Below, one piece after another: positions 1,524 through 35,850 of a stretch of DNA of 37,097 nt. The notes under the pieces were generated by a model. That model did not search any database, was not told the origin of the DNA, and worked only from the letters and a program-made list of their open reading frames with translations. Numbering within the stretch: the first letter of the stretch is position 1; each line of letters opens with the position of its first letter. A program made the translations under genes and the position numbers. Origin of the DNA: a virus; IMG/VR virus record IMGVR_UViG_3300036046_000022, positions 1 through 37,097 of that record; one strand, written 5' to 3'.

Positions 1524-2570
1524 TCAATCGAGTGCCTCGAACAACGGACAGGCGGGTTCGGCCGGTTTCGCGATCGGCGGCGCCTTTTTTCGGGCCGGCT
1601 TCCGCGTGACCGCTTGCTCCATGGCATCGATGAGGTGGGCGACCTTGTCGTCAAGGTGGGTGTAACCTTCCGCCGTGGTGGTGATCGATCGGTGGCCGAC
1701 GAGTTGAGAGACCGTCGCCAGGCCGACGCCCGCGAGCTGCGATTGCGTGATGAAGGTGTGACGGCCGCCGTGGCACTTTACCGCTTTGGATAGTCCGGCG
1801 CGATCGCGACTGGCGCTCATCGCCTTCGTCCACGCGCGAGTGAGCCAGGGCGTGCCGTGTGAGTTTAAAAAAACTCGCTTGCTCCCTGCCGGATTGTTTC
1901 GTCGTGCCCACTCGAACAGCTTGAGCATCTGCCGATTCACGGGCAGTGCCCGCGCCTCGCCCGTCACGCCGCCGCTCTTGTGTTCCTCCGCGGCGAACAC
2001 GATTTTCCACGCGCCGCCATCGTCCTTGAGGTGTCGCCACTCCAGCGTCGCGACTTCGCCGGGCCGCATGCCCGAGATACGGATGGCGACGAGGTATCGC
2101 CTAAACGCCGCATTTCGGGTGTGTCGGAGCACCGCCCGCAACTCCGCCTCGGACCAGTCTCGGCCCTTCTTGCCGCGCGGCATCTTGAGTCCGTGGAATG
2201 GGTTCGAATCGATGAAGTCGAGCTCTTTGGCCTTATTGAAAGGCACTTGGATCGTGGCGTTCCACCTGCGGCGAGTGTGGTTCGCGAGATGGCCGGCGTG
2301 TTTGTCGAGAAACGCCATGAGTTGCCAGCGCTTGCAGCGACCGACGAGCTGGTCGCCGATGGTCCCGCCGCCGTCGAGTTCCTCGGCGGCGAACTTTGCC
2401 CACAGCCGACGGGCCTCGCCTGCAAGTTTCAGGCGCTGCGCGGAGCTGCTCTGGGCGTACCAGGCCAGGACTTGTTTCACGGTCTTGCCCGGCTCGGACT
2501 CCGGCGGCGGAGTCGCCGGTATCAACGCGGACGCATGCGGTTGGAAGACGCGGAGTGCTGATGCGGTCAT
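1524..2570 (-). CDS. int: Tyrosine-recombinase integrase, 348 aa
   Basis: Site-specific recombinase expected to insert and excise the phage at attP. The N-terminal part (about 25-150) is a helical core-binding domain. The catalytic domain shows box I GMRPGEVATLEW with its Arg, a central Lys region (EEHKSGG), then HGGRHTF as the H-x-x-R box and GHRSITTTAEGYTHL with the nucleophilic Tyr. Length is typical. I start at the ATG at 2570 (MTASALRV) because GGGAG lies 7 bases upstream; a longer frame to 2624 lacks such a site. It ends 57 bases from the tRNA-like attP core, the usual int-attP arrangement. The C-terminal tail (about 320-348) is Lys/Pro-rich and beyond the family core. Confidence 0.95.
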   Translation of the reverse strand: MTASALRVFQPHASALIPATPPPESEPGKTVKQVLAWYAQSSSAQRLKLAGEARRLWAKFAAEELDGGGTIGDQLVGRCKRWQLMAFLDKHAGHLANHTRRRWNATIQVPFNKAKELDFIDSNPFHGLKMPRGKKGRDWSEAELRAVLRHTRNAAFRRYLVAIRISGMRPGEVATLEWRHLKDDGGAWKIVFAAEEHKSGGVTGEARALPVNRQMLKLFEWARRNNPAGSKRVFLNSHGTPWLTRAWTKAMSASRDRAGLSKAVKCHGGRHTFITQSQLAGVGLATVSQLVGHRSITTTAEGYTHLDDKVAHLIDAMEQAVTRKPARKKAPPIAKPAEPACPLFEALD

Positions 2571-2610
2571 TGTCGAGCTCCCATTGACCTGCCAAGGGAA
2601 AGGAAGCCCG

Positions 2611-2641
2611 GGTCCCGGCCGCACCAGCGCGGCACGGGACC
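2611..2641. promoter_or_regulatory. Hairpin in the integrase leader
   Basis: GGTCCCG plus GCCGC pair with GCGGC plus CGGGACC around ACCAGC, with one bulged A. The hairpin lies 41 bases upstream of the integrase start and would be in its transcript leader if transcription starts further right. It could limit integrase expression or stop transcription between the two divergent directions. No T-run follows on either side. Confidence 0.4.
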
Positions 2642-6124: not shown

Positions 6125-7606
6125 ATGAAACACACTGCTAAATCTCTGCCGACCGTGCCCGCCGAGGTGCGGACATCCGCACCCGCCGCCGGGCCGTTTC
6201 GAGCCCGCGTGGCCGATTCGCGGCATCGGCGAGTCGGCCACGAACCCGCGCAAAACGATCGATCCCGCGAAGCTCGCGAACCTCGCCGACAGCATCAAGG
6301 AGAAAGGCGTCCTCGAACCGCTGATCGTTCGGCCCTACGGCACGACCGGCGTCGTCGAGCTGGTCGCCGGCGAACGCCGCTTCCGGGCCGCGCAGATCGC
6401 GGGCTGCGCGACGGTGCCGGTGACGAGGTCGCCGCGAAACTCAGCGTCTCGCCGACGACCATCTATGCCGCCTTGAAACTCCTGAGGCTGCCGGCGAAGG
6501 CACGCAAAGCCCTCGCCGCCGGCGAGATTTCGGCCTCGACGGCCCAACTGATCGGCCGCGTGCCGAGCGAGTCGCTGCGGAAAGAGGCCTCAGACGCGAT
6601 CGTCGGCGGTCAGGGCCGATGGGGTCCGAGCGAGCCTCTGTCGTTTCGCGCCGCCAAAGAGTGGATCGAGAGTTATGTGACGCGCGAGCTAAAGGGCTCG
6701 CCGTTCGACCAGGCCGACGCCGCGCTGGTCAAGCCCGCGGGTGTTTGCGACACGTGCCCGAAGCGGACGGGGAATGCTCGCGAGCTATACCCGGACGGCC
6801 GCGCGGACATTTGCACCGACACCGCCTGCTATGACGGGAAGGTTCGGGCGCACGGTCAGCTTACCCTCGCACGAGCCAAGGCGGATGGTCGGAAGGTTCT
6901 CTCGGCAAAAGACGCGAAAACGCTTTTCGCCGACTTTTACGATCATCAGCTCAATGGCGGCACCAACTTCGTCGACCTCGACGCCGACTGCTACGAGACC
7001 GGCGCACCAGCGAAGTGGCGATCCCACCTGCTGCCGGACTGCCAGCCGGACATCGTGTTGGCCGTCGATCCAAAGGGCCGCGTGCGCGAGTTGGTGCCGA
7101 AGTCGCGAGCGGCAGCGATTCTACGGCAGAAAAAACTCGTCACGCGGCAACCGACGCCGGCCTCTCGTGTCAGCGAATCCTGGAAGAAGGAGCAGCAAAA
7201 ACGGGACGCGGAGAAGGCTAAGCGAGTCGAGGTTGCGAAAGTGGTCGCCTTGGCGACTCGCGAAGCTGTGCTTCGCCAATCGCATCTGGACGGTCCGCTC
7301 CGCTTCATGCGGGTACTGACAAGGATCTTAATCAACGACATCGTCCTATTTAACGATGCGGCGGAGAAATTGGTCGCAAAATCCTATGGCGTCGCGAACG
7401 TCAATGACGCGATCGAGTCGCTCGGGTCCGCCGGCTGCATCGCGCTTGTTTGCGAGTCGCTTGTGGCACAACTCGAAGTCGTGGGGCGAGAGGACGACGA
7501 CTTCGTGCCGTTTTTTGAGTGTCTCGGCGTCGACCGCGCCGCGATCGCCGCCGGGAAGGTTGAATCCAATCCGAAAAAGAAGGGGTGCTCACGTGACGTG
7601 CGATGA
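6125..7606 (+). CDS. ParB-like protein with frame-disrupted nuclease domain, 493 aa
   Basis: The ParB N-terminal domain is clearly encoded, but in a different frame from the start and from the rest. At about 6215-6420 the frame one base upstream reads IGESATNPRKTIDPAKLANL, then LVAGERRFRAAQIAGC (the GERR box). After 6421 the frame starting at 6125 takes over with DEVAAKLSVSPTTIYAALKL, the ParB helix-turn-helix. About 35-40 codons expected between the GERR box and the HTH are missing. The C-terminal part has the CDTCPKRTGN...DICTDTACYDGK cysteine cluster known in phage ParB-like proteins. The open frame from 6125 crosses the domain as an Arg-rich off-frame stretch. It is either an inactivated gene with two compensating frame changes or an assembly deletion. 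Confidence 0.7.
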   Translation: MKHTAKSLPTVPAEVRTSAPAAGPFRARVADSRHRRVGHEPAQNDRSREAREPRRQHQGERRPRTADRSALRHDRRRRAGRRRTPLPGRADRGLRDGAGDEVAAKLSVSPTTIYAALKLLRLPAKARKALAAGEISASTAQLIGRVPSESLRKEASDAIVGGQGRWGPSEPLSFRAAKEWIESYVTRELKGSPFDQADAALVKPAGVCDTCPKRTGNARELYPDGRADICTDTACYDGKVRAHGQLTLARAKADGRKVLSAKDAKTLFADFYDHQLNGGTNFVDLDADCYETGAPAKWRSHLLPDCQPDIVLAVDPKGRVRELVPKSRAAAILRQKKLVTRQPTPASRVSESWKKEQQKRDAEKAKRVEVAKVVALATREAVLRQSHLDGPLRFMRVLTRILINDIVLFNDAAEKLVAKSYGVANVNDAIESLGSAGCIALVCESLVAQLEVVGREDDDFVPFFECLGVDRAAIAAGKVESNPKKKGCSRDVR

Positions 7607-10802: not shown

Positions 10803-12287
10803 ATGGCTCGACCACGCCTCACCGACTGGCTCGCGACTGCGTCGACCGCTGCGCCGACGCCGTCGCGCGGCGCGGCTGCCGACCGCGACGTCGCGCTGAT
10901 GCTGTCCGCGCTGCGGAGCAAGTCGCCGGGGCAATGGTCGCAAAACGTCCTCGAGCTGGCGCGGCACTTCACCGGCGCCGCCTACCTCGCCGTCCACACG
11001 CTCGCCAAGCACGCGATGGATTCGACGTTCAGCCTCTACGAGCGCACCGAGGATCCCGAGGCGCCGAACGGCGAGGTGCAATTGCCGTGGCACGATCCCG
11101 CCCATCGGCTCTTCGAGGATCCCAACCCAGTCGATACTTTCGCGGACCTGATGTACCAATCGGTCCAGCAACTGTCGATCACCGGCCTGACGCTGACCTG
11201 GTCGGTGCCGAGCGATGACGCCGACGAACCGCGAGAGATGTACAACCTGCCGACCGCGAATTGTTGGCCGATGCCGCCCGGCTACCACAATGGATTCGCG
11301 TACCCGCACGGCGCGTACCGAGTTTTACCGTATCCCTTCGGCATGCTGTCGGCGCCGATGGGCCAGATCACGTCAGGCGCGATCATCCCCGCGGAGCAGA
11401 TCGTGCGAACCAAGCAACATCATCCGTTTTTGCGATACGACGGATACGCGGTGATGAGCGCGATCAGCCAGGAAATCGACACGCTCGAAGCGATCGGCAC
11501 GAGCCGCAGCAACACGATGCTCCAAGGCTGCGAACAGAGCCTCGCACTCAAGACCAATTCGCCGACGGCCAGCGATCCCGACGAACCCATGTTGGCACGG
11601 CTGCGCTCGCAATTCCAAGCGCTCTACGCCGGCCCGAAAAACGCCGGCAAGGTCATCATCGTGCCGGTGGGCTGGGATCTGAGCCAGGTGTCGACGGTCC
11701 CCAAGGACATGGCATGGCAGGAGGGGTGGTCGCAAGTTCTCGACTTCATCCTGGCGGCGTGGGGCGTGCCGAAGGCGGTCGCCGGCCTTCAAGACTCGGT
11801 CAGCTACGCGACCCTCTACTCGTCGTTGCGGGCATTTTGCCTGTTCAGCCTTGGGCCAATTGTGCGGCTGATCGCCCGGAGCTGGGGCAAGCACGTCGTG
11901 CGGCCGGCGTGGGGGCCGGCGATCGGGCTGCGAATCAACGCGCCGGAGTTCAAGGACGAAACGCTCGAAGAGACCAAAATCGGCAACGACCTCAAGGCCG
12001 GCATCCGGCTGGTGCGCGAAATGCGCCGATCGCGCGGCTACGACGAACTCAATCCCCAAGACCATCCGTGGGTTAATGACCGCGCCATCGCCTCCTTTTC
12101 GCCGCAATCGCCGACGGGCGGCGGCGACGGCGGACGCGAGAACGATCCCGAGGGGAACGGGCCGCGGCTCAATGACCCCAACGTCGACAACGCCAGGCCG
12201 GCCACGAAGGCCGACCGACTCGAAGCGCTGGCGCGGGCCTTCGAGACGGCGAAAACGAACGGGCACGCGCACCCGATTCGAGGTTAG
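10803..12287 (+). CDS. Portal protein, HK97-like, 494 aa
   Basis: Dodecameric vertex channel through which DNA enters. The family pattern is visible: a helical start (WSQNVLELARHFTGAAYLAV), the wing with YNLPTANCWPM, a polar crown entry IIPAEQIVRTKQHHP, then the long helical stem region and GWDLSQVS with DFILAAWGVPKAVAGL, which is typical of portal proteins just before the C-terminal domain. Length is in the family range. GGAGGG lies 3-8 bases before the ATG. The C-terminal tail after about 420 is Gly/Asp/Asn-rich and probably disordered. Confidence 0.9.
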   Translation: MARPRLTDWLATASTAAPTPSRGAAADRDVALMLSALRSKSPGQWSQNVLELARHFTGAAYLAVHTLAKHAMDSTFSLYERTEDPEAPNGEVQLPWHDPAHRLFEDPNPVDTFADLMYQSVQQLSITGLTLTWSVPSDDADEPREMYNLPTANCWPMPPGYHNGFAYPHGAYRVLPYPFGMLSAPMGQITSGAIIPAEQIVRTKQHHPFLRYDGYAVMSAISQEIDTLEAIGTSRSNTMLQGCEQSLALKTNSPTASDPDEPMLARLRSQFQALYAGPKNAGKVIIVPVGWDLSQVSTVPKDMAWQEGWSQVLDFILAAWGVPKAVAGLQDSVSYATLYSSLRAFCLFSLGPIVRLIARSWGKHVVRPAWGPAIGLRINAPEFKDETLEETKIGNDLKAGIRLVREMRRSRGYDELNPQDHPWVNDRAIASFSPQSPTGGGDGGRENDPEGNGPRLNDPNVDNARPATKADRLEALARAFETAKTNGHAHPIRG

Positions 12288-12839: not shown

Positions 12840-15800
12840 ATGAGGAAGGAGATCGACTCGCTGGCGTATGACGTCAACGGTGGGCTCGCCATCGATTTCC
12901 TCCCGCGCGCGGCGGTGACGCTCGACAAATCGAAGATGTCCGCGAGCTGCACATTCTCGACGTCGGCGATCGACCGCGTCGGCGACATGCTCGACGTAGC
13001 CGGCATTCGGACCGAGAACCACCAGAGCAATCCCGTGGTTTTTTGGGATCACGCTCGGCACCTCACCTTCCCGATCGGCAAGACCAAGGACCTGGCCGGC
13101 GCCTATACGGTGCAGATCCTCGACGGCGACCAGGGCGGCGTCGCGACTCAGGTCACCTACTTCTCGCAGACGCTGCTCGAAGCGGAGCAGGTTTTCGAAT
13201 TGATCGCCGAGGGAATCATCTCCGCGAATTCGATTGGTTTTCGGCCGATCAAGGCAACGCCGCTGTACGTCGGACATCGGCGCCTCGGCTTGCACCTCAA
13301 AGAGGTTGAATTGCTTGAAATCTCGTGGGTCGGCGTTCCGTGCAATCAGGATGCGGTTCGGTCCGCACTTTCTCGCGGCAGGCTCTGCGGCAAGGCGATC
13401 GCCGAGCCGATCCGGCAATCACTCGCACCGCTCGTCGCCGGCCGCAAGTGCTGGGCGCCTGGCGCGGCGATCAAGGCGCTGACCGAGGTGCCGGAAATGG
13501 GCGAAGAGTCCGAGCGGTTCGCGGTTCTGGTAGACATCGTCGGCGGTCTGCTGGATCGGCCGGTCGCGAAGAATTGGAACGAATCGGACCATCCGCGCGG
13601 CCAACCTAGCAACGCCGGCCAGTTCGGCCCCGGGGGCGGAGCTGGCGGCGGCGGCGGATCCAAGCCGCGCGGCGGCGCTGGCGACAAGCCCGCGAAGAAG
13701 CCGGCGAGCCCGGCCAAGAAACCCTCGAAGGAACCCGCGCCGCCGAGCGCTCGCGCGGGCGGCAAACAGGCGCAGCAAGCCGCTCGGCAGGCGGTAGCGA
13801 AAATCCTGAGCGGCGCGATCACGCCCGAGTCGCACAAGGCACTCGTCGGCCATCTCGGGCGTCTCACCGTGCCGCAATTGCAAGCGATCCGCAAGGAGCA
13901 CAACCTGAAGTGTCCGGGCCGACTCAAGGCGCAGGTCCTCGACGCTCTGTCGCACCATTTCAATTCGCGGATCATCAAGGCCGGGACGGTCGACGTCGAC
14001 AAGGTCGCCGCCGCGCTCAAGCCGTTCGCCGCGGTGGAACTCGACCCGAATACGGTGCGGTTCGCGAAGGCTGACTATTTCGCGATCAAGCAGCAATACG
14101 GAACGCTGGCCGTCCAGAGGATCAAAGAACTCGCCGTGGACGCTCTCGGCGCGATGAACGAGCTGCCGCGCGGCGCGTCCACGGAACGCGAATTCTTCCG
14201 CAAACGGCTGGCCGTCTGCTCGTGGATGTGCGATCAGGCGAAGCGCGACGGCATCACCGGCAGAGTCGAGCCCGCGTCGATGACCGACGCGAAGGCGAAC
14301 CTCGCGCGCATCGCCACGGCCGAGCGGCTCAAGGGGATTCCCTGGACCGCGTTCTTGCTGAAAGGCATTCGCGACGAGTTCGATGTCTCGCCGGAGATTA
14401 ATGACGAGCAGGTGTGGCACAACCTGAAAGACCCGACGGGGTCACGGTACAAGGGGCCGCGGCTCGACGCCGTCCTCACGCGGCTCCGCCCGGACTACGG
14501 CAGCATGTCGCAATCGCAACTCTTCCAACTGTTGCCGCGGCTCGAAAAACGTACCGACACGCTCGCCGACGCGGCGCAGCGAACGCGGCCAACGGCGTCG
14601 CTTTCGGTCAAACGCTGGCGGAAAGACGTTACTGCCGGTCGGTGGGATGAAAGTAAGCATCCCCGCGCCGACGACGGCAAGTTCGGCGCGGGCTCCGGCG
14701 GCGCGGCCGGCGGCGACGCCGCGAAGCCCGGCGGCGACGCGCCGAAGCCGGCGGGCCCTCGTCAGCCCGCCGCCGTCCGTCGCGCGATGGCCGCGGTCAT
14801 CGCGATCGGCAAGCAAGTGGGGCACATCGAGCACGCAGCGCAAGAGTGGATCGGCAAGAAGGTCGGCTCGCTGCCCGCGCCGTTGCGAGTTCCGATCGTC
14901 GGCGTCTACAAGATCGCGTTCGCGAGCCACACAGTCGCGCAGAAAGCCGTGGCGGCGGTCGCCGCCGAGCGCGGCTTCACGCCGGAGCAAATCGCGCACG
15001 TGTCGAAAATCTGTGCGGTCGTCGACGTGGTCGGCGGCGGCAAGGTGTTTCCCGGGGTGCTCAAGGCGACCGGGCTCGGCGCCGCGGCGCTCGCCGGCTC
15101 CTTCGTGCCGGTCGGCAGCCTTGGGTATCTCGTCTTCTCGACCGGGAAGGATCCGCTGGCGACATTGCGTGCGGCAAAAAAGGGAGTCGCCGCCGCTCTT
15201 CGCGTTGTCCGGCCCACGAAAGCGATGGCGAGCACGGATCTCATCAACGTGCTCCTCGATGCCGCCAAGACGGCCGACGATGCCGACTTGTGGATGGCGA
15301 CCGTGCTGGCCGCGATCGACGCGACGGACGGCGACGTCGCACGGGCCATTGAAATCGCCCGAGTTTGCGGCCGCGCAGCAGCCCGCCGCAACTGGCGTAA
15401 GGGTGGGGCCGGAGGCCGCTGGGAGGAGGGCAAACATCCCCGCGCCGACGACGGCAAGTTTGGCGACAAACCAGGCGCGGCAGGCGCGAACGGCCCCGTC
15501 GCGAGATATAGCTCTCCTGACGGCGAAAAGTATGTCATTGGGACGCAAGAAGGTGGTCACGCGGGAGCATTGTACGCGTTCGCGGCAGACGATTTGTCTG
15601 CCGCGGACGACGATGATGATCGCGAGGACGTTAAGGCGGTTGCGTATTTCATCCCGGAAAGCAGCGGCATGACGTTGCTGGCGGTGGACGATAACCACGC
15701 GGGCCGAGGCGTCGGATTGATCCTAAGCTTTCTGTTCCGGTCAGAGCATCCATTTCAACAGAGTGGCGGATTGTCGAGTGGCGGCGAAGCGATCGCACGC

Positions 15801-15842
15801 CGCGTGTATCGCCTCCTCCGCGCAAAAGCGGAGGAACAGTAG
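12840..15842 (+). CDS. Prohead protease polyprotein with C-terminal GNAT-like domain, 1000 aa
   Basis: Residues 1-180 are an HK97-type (U35) prohead protease: His71 in FWDHARH, Ser131 in ISANSIGF, and LLEISWVGVP at 158-167. The usual protease is about 200 residues; here about 800 follow. Three similar linkers occur: WNESDHPR...AGQFG near 246-264, WDESKHPRADDGKFG near 602-616, WEEGKHPRADDGKFG near 861-875, each followed by a Gly/Ala/Pro-rich stretch. Between linkers 1 and 2 is a helical region with a SAP-like segment (about 342-370). Between 2 and 3 is an Ala-rich helical part with hydrophobic segments. After linker 3, LAVDDNHAGRGVGL (947-960) fits the acetyl-CoA loop of GNAT acetyltransferases. 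This resembles phage polyvalent proteins. Cleavage and delivery with the head are inferences. Confidence 0.8.
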   Translation: MRKEIDSLAYDVNGGLAIDFLPRAAVTLDKSKMSASCTFSTSAIDRVGDMLDVAGIRTENHQSNPVVFWDHARHLTFPIGKTKDLAGAYTVQILDGDQGGVATQVTYFSQTLLEAEQVFELIAEGIISANSIGFRPIKATPLYVGHRRLGLHLKEVELLEISWVGVPCNQDAVRSALSRGRLCGKAIAEPIRQSLAPLVAGRKCWAPGAAIKALTEVPEMGEESERFAVLVDIVGGLLDRPVAKNWNESDHPRGQPSNAGQFGPGGGAGGGGGSKPRGGAGDKPAKKPASPAKKPSKEPAPPSARAGGKQAQQAARQAVAKILSGAITPESHKALVGHLGRLTVPQLQAIRKEHNLKCPGRLKAQVLDALSHHFNSRIIKAGTVDVDKVAAALKPFAAVELDPNTVRFAKADYFAIKQQYGTLAVQRIKELAVDALGAMNELPRGASTEREFFRKRLAVCSWMCDQAKRDGITGRVEPASMTDAKANLARIATAERLKGIPWTAFLLKGIRDEFDVSPEINDEQVWHNLKDPTGSRYKGPRLDAVLTRLRPDYGSMSQSQLFQLLPRLEKRTDTLADAAQRTRPTASLSVKRWRKDVTAGRWDESKHPRADDGKFGAGSGGAAGGDAAKPGGDAPKPAGPRQPAAVRRAMAAVIAIGKQVGHIEHAAQEWIGKKVGSLPAPLRVPIVGVYKIAFASHTVAQKAVAAVAAERGFTPEQIAHVSKICAVVDVVGGGKVFPGVLKATGLGAAALAGSFVPVGSLGYLVFSTGKDPLATLRAAKKGVAAALRVVRPTKAMASTDLINVLLDAAKTADDADLWMATVLAAIDATDGDVARAIEIARVCGRAAARRNWRKGGAGGRWEEGKHPRADDGKFGDKPGAAGANGPVARYSSPDGEKYVIGTQEGGHAGALYAFAADDLSAADDDDDREDVKAVAYFIPESSGMTLLAVDDNHAGRGVGLILSFLFRSEHPFQQSGGLSSGGEAIARRVYRLLRAKAEEQ
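14658..14687 (+). repeat. 30-bp linker repeat, copy 1
   Basis: Identical to 15435-15464 except for one base. It encodes HPRADDGKFG, the linker that precedes each accessory segment of the protease polyprotein. The near identity in DNA, not only in protein, suggests recent duplication or shuffling through the linker. Confidence 0.85.
15435..15464 (+). repeat. 30-bp linker repeat, copy 2
   Basis: Second copy of the HPRADDGKFG coding repeat, immediately upstream of the GNAT-like domain of the protease polyprotein. Confidence 0.85.
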
Positions 15843-15850
15843 TGCCGAGG

Positions 15851-16246
15851 TCAATGGACGCCGAGTCCGATCGCGGTCAACACGTGTTGAAGCTTGTGGC
15901 TACCCATGCTTTTGCGCCGCTCCAAATAGTCCTTCACGTGATCTGGGCTGACGGCACCGCCGGTGAGCTTGGCGATCGCGTAGGCCGTCAGCCCGAGTTG
16001 CTCGGCGCGGGCGATGACAGCCTCCTGGACCAAGTCGCGGCGGTGGTAGCGAAAGAAACAGTCGCCCGCCTCGCGCATGAGGCGGGCGATCAGTTTGGCG
16101 TCGCGCGGCGGGTCGTCGAGCCACTCGACGGCGTCGCCGTCGGCCTCGAAACCCCCGTCGTCGCGCGGAGTCAGCGTCACGGAAAAACGGGGCCGGGCGG
16201 TGTGATGCACCACCCGGCCGACGATGCGGAATCCGTCATTCGTCAT
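15851..16246 (-). CDS. HTH-domain regulator, 131 aa
   Basis: The N-terminal half is beta-rich (FRIVGRVVHHTARPRFSVTL). The C-terminal part (about 80-131) is a Cro/C1-like helix-turn-helix: RAEQLGLTAYAIAKLTGG, SPDHVKDYLERRK, then a third helix. Start at 16246 is chosen for GAGGG 7 bases upstream; ATGs at 16249 and 16258 are possible. It overlaps the upstream leftward gene and is read from the same promoter at about 16870. It lies against the direction of all head genes, so it belongs to an inserted cassette; it may bind the operator palindrome in that promoter, which would make the cassette self-regulated (inference). Confidence 0.7.
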   Translation of the reverse strand: MTNDGFRIVGRVVHHTARPRFSVTLTPRDDGGFEADGDAVEWLDDPPRDAKLIARLMREAGDCFFRYHRRDLVQEAVIARAEQLGLTAYAIAKLTGGAVSPDHVKDYLERRKSMGSHKLQHVLTAIGLGVH

Positions 16247-16805
16247 CATCGCCCTCATGAGGAGTCACTAGGACGGCCACACGATAACCGTCCCCGCGGT
16301 CGCGGGAAACGTCGACGATCTCGCCGCCGTGGTCGCGCAACTGAAACGGAGTCCAATCGTCGTCGTCGGCGCGCTCGGCGTTGCATTTTTCGCAGTACGA
16401 GAATATCGCGTGCGTGGTGTATGGCCCCGAGTCGTTGCCGAGGTGGTCGCTGACGACCGCCCACATCCTCTTATCGAGGCTGTTCGGGATGAGGCCATAC
16501 GGGGCGCGCTCCGGATCGCCGCCGTCGGCAACCCATGCGGCCAATGCCCCATCGTCCTGAGGCCACAGCTGGATCGCGACCGACTCCCACCACGGATCGG
16601 ACCCGGCGCGCCGGCCGCACTCGCATGCCGGCCATGACTCGACCCGACCTTCCAACGCGGCCTGAGCCGCCGCGCGGGCCGCGTCGAGCGACTCACAGTC
16701 GATGCCGGCTTGGAACCCGTCAGTCGGGTCGTCGTAGCTGCCGCTACTGCATGGGTGGCCTACAGACTGGCCCTGAGTGTGTTCGGCTGTTGCGATGAAC
16801 CTCAT
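16236..16805 (-). CDS. Hypothetical moron protein, 189 aa
   Basis: Start at the ATG at 16805 (MRFIATAEHTQ), with GGAG 9 bases upstream; the frame runs back to 16880, but that would begin inside the promoter palindrome. The protein is acidic, with scattered cysteines (CECGRR, then YCEKCNAE, a possible metal site at about 103 and 157) and a Trp-rich middle (DPWWESVAIQLWP). No family recognised. It is the first gene of a leftward two-gene cassette inserted between protease and scaffold genes, with its own promoter, which is how phage morons are usually organised. It may be expressed from the prophage. Confidence 0.6.
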   Translation of the reverse strand: MRFIATAEHTQGQSVGHPCSSGSYDDPTDGFQAGIDCESLDAARAAAQAALEGRVESWPACECGRRAGSDPWWESVAIQLWPQDDGALAAWVADGGDPERAPYGLIPNSLDKRMWAVVSDHLGNDSGPYTTHAIFSYCEKCNAERADDDDWTPFQLRDHGGEIVDVSRDRGDGYRVAVLVTPHEGDDDE

Positions 16806-16868
16806 TGTCTCAATCTCCACCCCGGCGACCGGCCGATTCGGTTCGAATATCGTTGACCCGACATAATT

Positions 16869-16897
16869 ATTATCGGCCAATCAGCCGATAATGGCAA
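16869..16897 (-). promoter_or_regulatory. Sigma70-type promoter with overlapping operator palindrome
   Basis: On the minus strand TTGCCA (16897-16892), exactly 17 bases, then GATAAT (16874-16869). The palindrome ATTATCGGC-CAATCA-GCCGATAAT (16869-16892) fills the spacer and -10, so a bound dimer would block RNA polymerase. A leader of about 57 bases precedes the ATG at 16805. The co-transcribed HTH protein is the obvious candidate to bind here. Confidence 0.75.
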
Positions 16898-16920
16898 GTA
16901 AAAAAAAAGCAGAAAAAAAG

Positions 16921-16960
16921 GCGCGCTTTCGGGTGAATCTGCGGCCGCGTGTATCATCGA
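16921..16960 (+). promoter_or_regulatory. Bipartite late motif, copy 2 (before scaffold and capsid)
   Basis: GCGCGC then TTTCGG (16927-16932), 18 bases, then GTATCATCGA (16951-16960). It matches the gap before the portal gene closely and the gap before the holin less well. It lies between the leftward moron promoter and the rightward scaffold gene. Confidence 0.45.
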
Positions 16961-16997
16961 CACTTGGATGCACGACCCGATCACAACGAGCGCCACC

Positions 16998-17501
16998 ATG
17001 GCCGACGACCCAAAGGACGATCCCCAGCCGAAAGCCGCCGCCAAGGCCGTGCCGCTCGGCGCGCAGATCCTGCGTAAACTCAATCGCGGGCTGACCGCCC
17101 TCTCCGAGGAGGTGACGACGATGGCCGGCAGCCTCGACGCGTGCGAGGCGAAGGACGCCATCGGCGGACTCGTCGGCAGCATCGGCACGATGACGGGCGA
17201 GATCGGCAAGAATTGGGGCAGGTACTACAAGGACCTCGACATCGACGAGGCCGACGAACCCGAGCCCGATCCCGACGACAGTGGTGCCAAAAGCGGCGAC
17301 GAGCCGGCCGACGACGATGACGACGCCGACGTCGCGGCGGCGTTGGCGGCGCTCGACGATCTCGACGATGGCGACGAGCCGGCCGACGACGACGATGATG
17401 AAGGGCTGAGCGACGAGGAGAAGAAAGCCGTCGCCCTCCGCATCGCCAAGATCGAATCGCAGATCAAGCATCAAGAGCGTCTCGCCGCCAAGAACAGTTA
17501 G
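16998..17501 (+). CDS. Acidic scaffold-like protein, 167 aa
   Basis: Helical middle (LGAQILRKLNRGLTALSEEV) followed by a long Asp/Glu-rich low-complexity stretch with two EPADDDDD blocks, ending in a charged helix (EEKKAVALRIAKIESQIKHQ). Acidic, coiled, directly before the major capsid gene: this is where HK97-like phages place a scaffold or head accessory protein, and the large capsid N-terminal domain could share the job. I start at ATG 16998; ATG 16968 is only 8 bases after the TATCATCGA motif and may be outside the transcript. Confidence 0.6.
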   Translation: MADDPKDDPQPKAAAKAVPLGAQILRKLNRGLTALSEEVTTMAGSLDACEAKDAIGGLVGSIGTMTGEIGKNWGRYYKDLDIDEADEPEPDPDDSGAKSGDEPADDDDDADVAAALAALDDLDDGDEPADDDDDEGLSDEEKKAVALRIAKIESQIKHQERLAAKNS

Positions 17502-17560: not shown

Positions 17561-18964
17561 ATGCCGAAGCTGCTCGAACGCCTGGACGCCGCGGAAAAGC
17601 GCCTCGCCGCCCTCACCAAAGGGGCGACGACGAATAGGCCCGATCCTCGCACGCCGAAGCCGAGCGACGTGTTCGGCGCGCCCCACGCCCGCAAGGGCGA
17701 AGACCCGATGACGTCTCGCGGGTTCCAATACATGCGCGTCGTCAAGGCGATGCAGTCGAATCCGCTCGTCGACAAAAGTGCGTGGGAGAACGCGAAAGTC
17801 GAGCGATCCGTCCTCGAACAACTCCGCGAGCCGTTCGGCGGCGGCGTCGGCGCGGCGAGCTTTGAGAAATCGAGCGTCCTCGCTCCGTTCGGCGTCGACC
17901 TCTTCCCCGAGCAAATGGGGGCGGACACGCAATTCGGGCAGCGGATCAAGTCGCTGGTGATGTTGGGCACCGAGAACGCCGACCCCGAGGAAATGTCCTG
18001 GATCGCGAGGAAAGCCTACAACGGCATCAACAAGGACATGAGCTGGTTGAACCAGAACGCTGGCGGCGCGCTTGTCGGACCGCCGCAGATGGGCGAATTG
18101 ATTGACCTGTTCCGCAACGAAGACGCGCTGACTCGCGCCGGCGCGACCGTGATTCCCATGCCGCCGTCGGGTCGCATTCAGTTCCCGCGGCAAACCACGC
18201 CCACGACCGGGTATTGGGTTGGCGAAAATCGCTCCACGACCGCGAGCGAGGTCGGCACCGGCATGCTCACGCTGAGCGCGAAAAAGGCGGGCGTCATCAT
18301 TACCATGCCGAACGAGTTGATCCGGTTCGCCGGGCCTGCCGCCGAGATGCTCTTCCGTGCGGACATGACGAAGACGCTCGCGCTCACCGTCGACCTCGCG
18401 GCGCTCGAAGGCGCCGGCGGCGACCTCAAACCGACTGGCATCATCAATACGCCGGGGATCGGCGTCGTCGCGCCGACCACCGCGGCGACCGGCAACACGG
18501 GTGCCCTGCTCGCCGAGGGCGACGTGTACAAGTGGCCGATGAAGGCTGCCCAGGCCAACGCTCGGTTTGAGGGCTTTTTGATGTCCCCGTCGATGTACTA
18601 CGCCTTGCTCCAGCGGCGCACCGGCGGTTCGGCGTCCGGCGACGGCGTCTTCGCGTTCGCGCCGTTCCGGCAGCTCGGCGACAAGGTCGACCAGCTCAAC
18701 ATCAACGGCCACCGAGTCACGATCAGCAATCAGGTCGGTCTCAATCGCGTTCAAGGCTCGACATCGAATCTGACCTACATCCTCGGCGGTATGTTCAGCG
18801 ATGTCATGCTCGCGATGTTCGGCGCCATCGAGTTCGCCGTGGCGACCCAGGGCGACACGATTTTCCCGGCCGATCAAACGTCGATCCGGGCCTTCCTGAT
18901 TTGCGACAGCGGCGTTCGCCACCCCGGCGCCCTCGCTTGGTGCGACAAGCTCCAGCAGGCCTAA
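17561..18964 (+). CDS. Major capsid protein, HK97 fold, 467 aa
   Basis: The first 20 residues are a coiled-coil helix (LERLDAAEKRLAALTKG), the usual start of a delta/scaffold domain removed by the protease. The HK97 pattern follows: long helix and E-loop region, SGRIQFPRQTTPTTGYWVGE, then VIITMPNELIRF, TKTLALTVDLAALEGAG with PTGIINTPG, and a P-domain/A-domain end (GGMFSDVMLAMFGAIEFAV). It is preceded by AAAGGA and follows the acidic scaffold gene. Expected to be the main shell protein. Confidence 0.93.
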   Translation: MPKLLERLDAAEKRLAALTKGATTNRPDPRTPKPSDVFGAPHARKGEDPMTSRGFQYMRVVKAMQSNPLVDKSAWENAKVERSVLEQLREPFGGGVGAASFEKSSVLAPFGVDLFPEQMGADTQFGQRIKSLVMLGTENADPEEMSWIARKAYNGINKDMSWLNQNAGGALVGPPQMGELIDLFRNEDALTRAGATVIPMPPSGRIQFPRQTTPTTGYWVGENRSTTASEVGTGMLTLSAKKAGVIITMPNELIRFAGPAAEMLFRADMTKTLALTVDLAALEGAGGDLKPTGIINTPGIGVVAPTTAATGNTGALLAEGDVYKWPMKAAQANARFEGFLMSPSMYYALLQRRTGGSASGDGVFAFAPFRQLGDKVDQLNINGHRVTISNQVGLNRVQGSTSNLTYILGGMFSDVMLAMFGAIEFAVATQGDTIFPADQTSIRAFLICDSGVRHPGALAWCDKLQQA

Positions 18965-35016: not shown

Positions 35017-35850
35017 ATGCGATTGCATTTCGACCCGGCGACGGGGACCGACTTTTTCTCGGACGATCAGGGGGCCGAGTATCGCACGGGTCTCATGCCC
35101 GGGGCTCCCGCGGCGGACGCCCCGCTCGCGGCGTCGCTCGGCTTTCCCCTGATCCCGCGCAGCGACATCCGTGACATCAATCTGTGGGAGCTCGACCCGC
35201 AGGTTTGGAATCAGAACCCGTACAACTCGTGCGCCGGTCATGGCGCCGTCGCCGCCGTCTCGTTGGCGTACCACCTCGGCGGCGCCAAGTCGCTGCGCCT
35301 GTCGCCGACCTACGTCTACGGCAACATCATCGCCGACAAGAACCGCGGCGACAACGGGGCTCGTCTCGACGAGACGCTCCGCGAGGTGACCGAGCGCGGC
35401 GTCTGCTCCGAGAACCTCGTCGGCCGCGGACAGATTTATCGCCGCTCCTGGGCCAACCGCGCCGCCGCCGACAAGGAAGCCGAACTGTACAAGGTCGCCG
35501 AGTGGCTGCTCGTCAAAACGTTCGACGAGATGCTGACGCTCATCTCGCTCGCCTTCCCGATCTCGTTCGGCATTTCGCTGGGTCAGAGGTTTTCGCCCGG
35601 CCCGGGCGGCGTCATTCCAGATCGGTCCGGCGGCGGCGGCGGGCACGCCATGGCCGCGGCGGCGATCCGGCGCATTGGCGGTCGGCTCTACGTCGGTTCC
35701 AAAAACTCCTGGGGCCCGGACTGGGCCGACGGGGGCTACTGCTGGATGCCCGAAAGCTACTTCACCGCGGGCGACATGAACGCCTACGGCGGAGTCTGGG
35801 TGCCGCTGGTCGTGACGACCGACCCGAAGAGCGATCCGACGATTTCTTGA
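35017..35850 (+). CDS. Papain-like (C1A) cysteine protease, 277 aa
   Basis: Gln66 and Cys72 lie in WNQNPYNSCAGHGAVAAVSLAY, matching the papain Q...C helix start; His210 lies in GGGGGHAMAAAA, and Asn230 in YVGSKNSWGPDWADGGYCW, the classic N-S-W-G-xx-W-xxxG-Y block. All catalytic positions are present. ATG follows the preceding stop directly. No signal peptide is visible. It sits in the lysis region after holin and exported protein, where an endolysin is expected. It might cleave host envelope protein, process virion proteins or act as a moron. A role as lysis enzyme is an inference. Confidence 0.85.
   Translation: MRLHFDPATGTDFFSDDQGAEYRTGLMPGAPAADAPLAASLGFPLIPRSDIRDINLWELDPQVWNQNPYNSCAGHGAVAAVSLAYHLGGAKSLRLSPTYVYGNIIADKNRGDNGARLDETLREVTERGVCSENLVGRGQIYRRSWANRAAADKEAELYKVAEWLLVKTFDEMLTLISLAFPISFGISLGQRFSPGPGGVIPDRSGGGGGHAMAAAAIRRIGGRLYVGSKNSWGPDWADGGYCWMPESYFTAGDMNAYGGVWVPLVVTTDPKSDPTIS

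Follow-up and report, generated by a model that had tools for sequence, protein, structure and literature searches.

The central gene of this study lies in a 37,097-nt stretch of viral DNA (IMG/VR record IMGVR_UViG_3300036046_000022; the window). It raises the question of why a predicted prohead protease should be followed by a series of modules divided by a recurring short peptide, and of what this peptide does. The initial annotation had suggested that the protein might cut itself at the repeats. We favor another reading, to which we assign a probability of about 0.45: the product would be a polyvalent virion protein with a prohead protease as its carrier, and the peptide, here called the HPR element, would act as a head-cargo signal that opens each module.

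Domain architecture of the polyprotein

The N-terminal domain is a predicted prohead protease of the S78/HK97 type. It was matched by PF04586 (S78) with an E value of 2.8e-6 and 28 bits, above the cut-off of 21; TIGR01543 matched with an E value of 1.6e-7 and a score of 31.5, below its stricter cut-off of 59. The head maturation protease family phrog_80 (PHROGs) also matched (E=6.7e-12), and the top tblastn matches of the polyprotein among phages were Vibrio phage prohead proteases. His71 and Ser131, previously proposed for a U35-type protease, are located as stated there and are kept in the aligned sequences of L002, L065, and L003. The catalytic His and Ser and the domain profile are common to T5-type and HK97-type prohead proteases (PF04586, TIGR01543, phrog_80), from which the window protein differs by about 800 additional residues of modules. 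These residues comprise, in order, HPR1, a Gly/Pro/Lys-rich stretch, a SAP-type domain, domain A, HPR2, a Gly-rich stretch, domain B, HPR3, and the C-terminal domain (Table 1).

Table 1. Features of the polyprotein locus in the window
Feature	Residues	Position (nt)	Strand	Basis or remark
Portal protein (context)		10803..12287	+	PF04860, E=6.8e-28
Polyprotein, 1,000 aa, prohead protease and three HPR-led segments		12840..15842	+	ATG start, frame open throughout
Predicted S78/HK97-type prohead protease domain	45-180	12972..13379	+	Profiles, aligned His71/Ser131
HPR element 1, long variant WNESDHPRGQPSNAGQF	246-262	13575..13625	+	Motif scan
Predicted SAP-type DNA-binding domain	about 336-378	13845..13973	+	Profile match
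Helical domain A	379-585	13974..14594	+	64% identity to L002, dN/dS 0.37
HPR element 2, WDESKHPRADDGKF	602-615	14643..14684	+	Motif scan
Hydrophobic helical domain B	641-850	14760..15389	+	47% identity to L002
Inferred insertion relative to L002 (HPR3, GNAT-like domain, two minus-strand ORFs)		15392..16967	.	L002 alignment
HPR element 3, WEEGKHPRADDGKF	861-874	15420..15461	+	Motif scan; missing at corresponding L002 position
C-terminal domain with GNAT-like A-loop	885-1000	15492..15839	+	phrog_29287-family relative
Acidic coiled-coil-like protein, equivalent to C-terminal part of L002 polyprotein		16968..17501	+	Alignment
Major capsid protein (context)		17561..18964	+	PF05065, E=4.7e-24; without HPR motif

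In viral contigs, the only close relative of the polyprotein was found in L002 (IMGVR_UViG_3300042691_020373), where the portal, polyprotein, and capsid genes are ordered as in the window. A two-sequence profile (window and L002) of the region behind the first Gly-rich stretch matched the C-terminal SAP domain of Ku70 (PDB 1jjr; E=6.4e-6), and TIGR00578 (ku70) matched the same region (E=8e-4). This region is a SAP-type domain, predicted to bind DNA, and is 65% identical to its L002 counterpart. For the protease domain, the identity was 68% and the dN/dS 0.20; across the protease, SAP, A, and B domains, dN/dS ranged from 0.15 to 0.37. Family searches with A and B gave no match, and no relatives of the two domains were found in genome contigs. 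A low-confidence AlphaFold model of A and B (pLDDT 45, few sequences) was helical.

The protein combines protease, SAP, and GNAT-like domains, and its gene lies between those for the portal and the capsid protein, as expected of a polyvalent protein. The profiles and the head-gene context bore out the annotated fusion of a prohead protease to modular cargo. Elsewhere in the window, we observed a tyrosine integrase (1524-2624, minus strand; PF00589, E=3.3e-19), and the phage is therefore probably temperate. A 493-aa ORF upstream of the terminase contains a ParB-type HTH (6125-7606, plus strand; PF17762, E=1.4e-6), and a papain-family cysteine protease is encoded near the window end (35017-35847, plus strand; PF00112, E=1.1e-8).

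The L002 protein joins the protease, A, B, and an acidic coiled domain directly before the capsid gene, an arrangement that would suit a protease-scaffold polyprotein. In such a protein, A, B, and the acidic domain would be assembly parts (an internal scaffold or DNA-binding core), and the GNAT-like piece would be the sole cargo. Domains A and B have no recognized enzymatic fold and could be such parts: they are under purifying selection and lack an effector match, and DNA binding is a SAP-domain trait. However, in other phages the same HPR boundaries stand before effector domains, and SAP/Rho-N domains have been reported for polyvalent proteins (PMC5512222). We regard this explanation as quite unlikely. 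If the HPR elements are head-cargo signals, as we prefer, the cargo modules would be the SAP domain with the first helical domain, the second helical domain, and the GNAT-like domain.

The GNAT-like module is accessory

An acetyl-CoA-loop-like motif, LAVDDNHAGRGVGL, is present at the C-terminus, as had been noted before. The GNAT-like character ascribed to this end of the protein was supported in part: the domain is related to a family of jumbo-phage proteins whose loop is GNAT-like, and it had no match to a GNAT profile. Compared to motif A, (Q/R)xxGx(G/A), the window loop AGRGVG retains the Gly pattern and carries Ala at the Q/R position. In the relative L088, the loop reads RGKGLG, and L088 reached only E=0.12 against a GNAT profile. 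Searches of Pfam, NCBIfam, and PDB with the C-terminal domain gave no sequence match. In an hhalign comparison (RimI/YhhY/L020 profile), the loop alone aligned (P=0.005), but the probability was only 8%. A profile match of the GNAT-like alignment to a cytochrome (PDB 9l08) had no passing stretch and was rejected. The AlphaFold model of the domain, built from two sequences only, had a pLDDT of 51.6 and was unusable; Foldseek with this low-confidence model (pLDDT ~52) retrieved no GNAT and nothing at E<=0.001. Since the AlphaFold models were poor and had too few sequences, the Foldseek results on A and B and on the GNAT-like domain were not used.

A jumbo-phage profile built from three relatives (SCTP-2 gp461, Atu_ph07, and L088) matched the window domain alone among 10,230 ORFs (E=7e-4), and the domain outscored all 20,000 shuffles of itself. 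Salicola phage SCTP-2 gp461 matches phrog_29287, and the homologous segment in this phage and in Agrobacterium phage Atu_ph07 shares TLL.V.....GxGxG and SGG...G with the window. There, it is a segment of a solo protein of ~440 aa in which no HPR element was seen, whereas in the window it is an HPR-led module. The phrog_29287-type proteins L087, L088, and L089, which come from jumbo phages and a viral contig, have a GNAT-like loop with an SGGxxxxG insert. The domain is thus better called GNAT-like than a confirmed GNAT, a designation that its sequence supports in part.

The L002 polyprotein (1,068 aa) is encoded directly upstream of the capsid gene and has two HPR elements. It lacks HPR3 and the GNAT-like domain, and B runs directly into an acidic coiled-coil-like domain. 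Accordingly, the alignment extends to residue 851 in the window and 895 in L002, and L002 residues 914-1066 match a separate downstream ORF of the window (45% identity, E=8e-39; Table 1). Because L002 lacks both HPR3 and the GNAT-like domain and the acidic domain is a separate gene in the window, ~1.5 kb with an HPR-led module was probably inserted between B and the acidic domain, and recently. The HPR2/HPR3 repeat and the split gene argue for a gain in the window lineage and not a loss in L002. The GNAT-like module is accessory: it has its own HPR element here and is missing from L002.

Behind the GNAT-like domain, a stop codon and two minus-strand ORFs (15851-16258 and 16236-16880) precede the acidic gene; these ORFs belong to the inferred insertion, oppose the direction of the head operon, and gave no significant family match. 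A plus-strand ORF (15842-16453) overlaps them, also had no significant family match (Pfam, PHROGs), and was taken as spurious.

HPR elements in the window and across phages

The initial annotation had described three HPR-x-DDGKFG linkers, each opening a new segment. All three elements are present and are supported as module boundaries, but the first is a longer variant, WNESDHPRGQPSNAGQF, and does not fit HPRxDDGKFG. This recurrent variant, HPRGQPxNAGQF, was also found in L041 and L046. Beyond the polyprotein, no HPR motif was found in the window. The near identity of the linker DNA was confirmed: over their 30 bases, positions 14658-14687 and 15435-15464 show a single difference, and both belong to a 74-nt direct repeat of 76% identity.

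Scanning of viral contigs (IMG/VR) for the HPR motif yielded 79 loci and, together with phage records, 81 ORFs in 54 clusters. The motif is far above chance, as no match occurred in 718 kb of random viral DNA read in all six frames. The logo reads W/F, D/E, E, S, K, HPR, three variable residues, G, K/R/Q, F, G, and a Gly-rich stretch, of which the search pattern itself prescribed HPR, G, and F. Outside this search core, Glu was conserved at 97% and Trp/Phe at 99% (53 clusters). Proteins carry one to six copies. Upstream of the elements (35 scanned), a portal domain was present in about half and MuF in two. Downstream, we found ADP-ribosyltransferases, PBECR1/3, LPD3, zeta toxin, S-AdoMet lyase, 2'-5' ligase, topoisomerase IB, PI3/4-kinase-like domains and, in L020, a clear GNAT; these neighborhoods are biased by the motif-seeded survey and its restriction to IMG/VR.

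In L020 (1625-5677; 1,351 aa), six HPR elements separate a ParB-like domain, a GNAT (865-930), a HipA/PI3K-like kinase, and other modules. In L016 (2264-7732; 1,823 aa), two HPR elements join a Mu-type portal to a putative metallopeptidase and to topoisomerase IB at the C-terminus. In L065 (2384-5686), an S78-type protease (weak match) is fused to modules and HPR, and one segment ends in NGHYTWPRLGYD, which is GNAT-like in appearance.

The position of the element was asymmetric. Among 45 complete ORFs, the first element lay <60 aa from the start in 16, and the last lay <60 aa from the end in none (sign test p=3e-5); therefore, the element leads the cargo. This is the placement of capsid-targeting sequences, N-terminal to the cargo, and internal copies precede modules. 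Several solo ORFs that begin with HPR lie directly behind head genes, with some of the upstream head identities read from C-termini.

In phage records (2.3 Gb), a linker query matched 30 records, with the top matches in portal proteins. The same query in plasmids (7.3 Gb), where one 35-residue query served as the probe for headless polyvalent proteins of conjugative elements, gave only two matches, a weak haloarchaeal one and another at chance level. A possible HPR match in a haloarchaeal virus had E=1.

The near identity of the window copies, which share 9 of 12 codons in HPR2/HPR3 (0.53 expected) and are followed by Gly-rich stretches, could point to passive spacers or to DNA patches that aid module recombination, and the copies in L085 are fully identical. 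In most proteins, however, copies shared no more codons than usage predicts (L048, 0/9; L061, 8/28; L002, 5/12), and the residues are conserved although the codons are mostly unshared. Since synonymous codons differ freely between the copies in most proteins, selection on HPR acts on the peptide and not on the DNA. In line with this, dN/dS against L002 was 0.09 in the HPR2 region (598-618), 1.45 in the adjoining Gly/Ser stretch, and 0.44 over 14 codons in the HPR1 region, where the window and L002 carry different variants; these values are rough because the stretches are short and dS is near saturation. The codon comparison disfavors the recombination patch, and both the patch and the passive spacer conflict with peptide-level selection and with the cargo-leading position, including HPR at the start of solo ORFs and the conserved Glu and Trp/Phe outside the search core. 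We consider spacers or patches very unlikely.

Peptide-level selection fits a head-cargo signal, and it would also fit cleavage sites of the phage's own prohead protease, at which the polyprotein would be cut in the head and its modules released separately. Cleavage of head cargo or of capsid N-termini is known for P1 Pro and T4 gp21 (PMC12810830, PMC9024508). Of the 46 HPR-bearing records, many carry a head protease gene, with DUF2213 in 21, S78 in 4, XkdF-type in 3 more, and S49 and ClpP types in none; a further head protease was detected via PHROGs in Gordonia phage Boopy. Fusions of protease and HPR in the same ORF also recur, namely in the window, L002, L065 (weak S78), L082 (weak XkdF type), L054 (XkdF type), and L055 (DUF2213). 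In random contigs, the corresponding counts were 7/38 for S78, 0/38 for DUF2213, 0/38 for S49, and 2/38 for ClpP. This comparison is confounded, because the way in which HPR-bearing records were collected ensures that they contain head genes, and one portal lineage is overrepresented among them; since a random contig may lack a head module, we kept the association as weak evidence. Furthermore, solo ORFs begin with HPR, with nothing there to cut off, and the window major capsid protein, the expected main substrate of the protease, lacks the motif. In HHTV-1, searches for four protease families gave no match, and PHROGs revealed no protease in two head ORFs. Self-cleavage at HPR is possible, but as a general explanation it is weaker than a head-cargo signal, and we consider it unlikely.

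A candidate head-cargo signal

The head-cargo signal is favored because it fits peptide-level selection, the cargo-leading position, and the phage-versus-plasmid distribution together. The protease domain and the location of the gene between portal and capsid genes would place the chain inside the assembling head. Each HPR element would serve as a conserved signal at the start of a cargo module and would retain that module in the head; the modules, perhaps trimmed by the protease, would then enter the host with the DNA.

In this respect, HPR may be likened to T4 and P1 capsid-targeting sequences, which are short peptides through which cargo enters the head. In P1 DarB, the 30 N-terminal residues suffice to direct a reporter to the capsid (PMC9024508). 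Unlike these sequences, HPR, a candidate signal, also occurs internally in up to six repeats and is present in many unrelated phages. By analogy, signaling and processing can be combined: according to the title of Mullaney and Black (1996; cited in PMC9024508), the T4 signal targets and also permits proteolytic processing.

Polyvalent proteins (Iyer et al. 2017, PMC5512222) are multidomain, virion-associated proteins that likewise bring together components of the head, peptidases, DNA-binding domains, and effectors (ART, GNAT, PBECR, LPD). They already include GNATs, SAP/Rho-N domains, peptidases, and portal/MuF fusions, and release or processing of their domains was predicted; the word "linker" is absent from the text of that paper. 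In the window protein, by comparison, the carrier is an S78 prohead protease and every segment is opened by HPR. Portal-effector and MuF-effector fusions (MuF toxins; Jamet et al. 2017, PMC5576092) are similar in that a head protein carries a C-terminal effector, and several survey members are portal or MuF fusions with HPR. MuF toxins are defined by the MuF domain, however, which the window protein lacks. New here are the S78 protease as carrier, HPR as the common module leader, and the clean module difference between two relatives. We found no description of the HPR motif in the open-access literature, which leaves out most subscription papers.

Head proteins of many unrelated phages carry HPR ahead of their effector modules, so that HPR may be a general head-cargo tag. 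More tentatively, [WF][DE]ESKHPRxxxG[KRQ]FGsGG could represent a portable head-cargo signal of many unrelated tailed phages, possibly also archaeal ones, which would acquire new payloads via HPR-led cassettes on portal, MuF, and protease genes. The single inferred insertion beside an otherwise matching relative illustrates how a payload is extended. If HPR marks head-delivered cargo, a motif of 15 residues would find injected phage effectors from sequence, including many that are now called hypothetical, and proteins could be tagged with it to load them into HK97-type heads.
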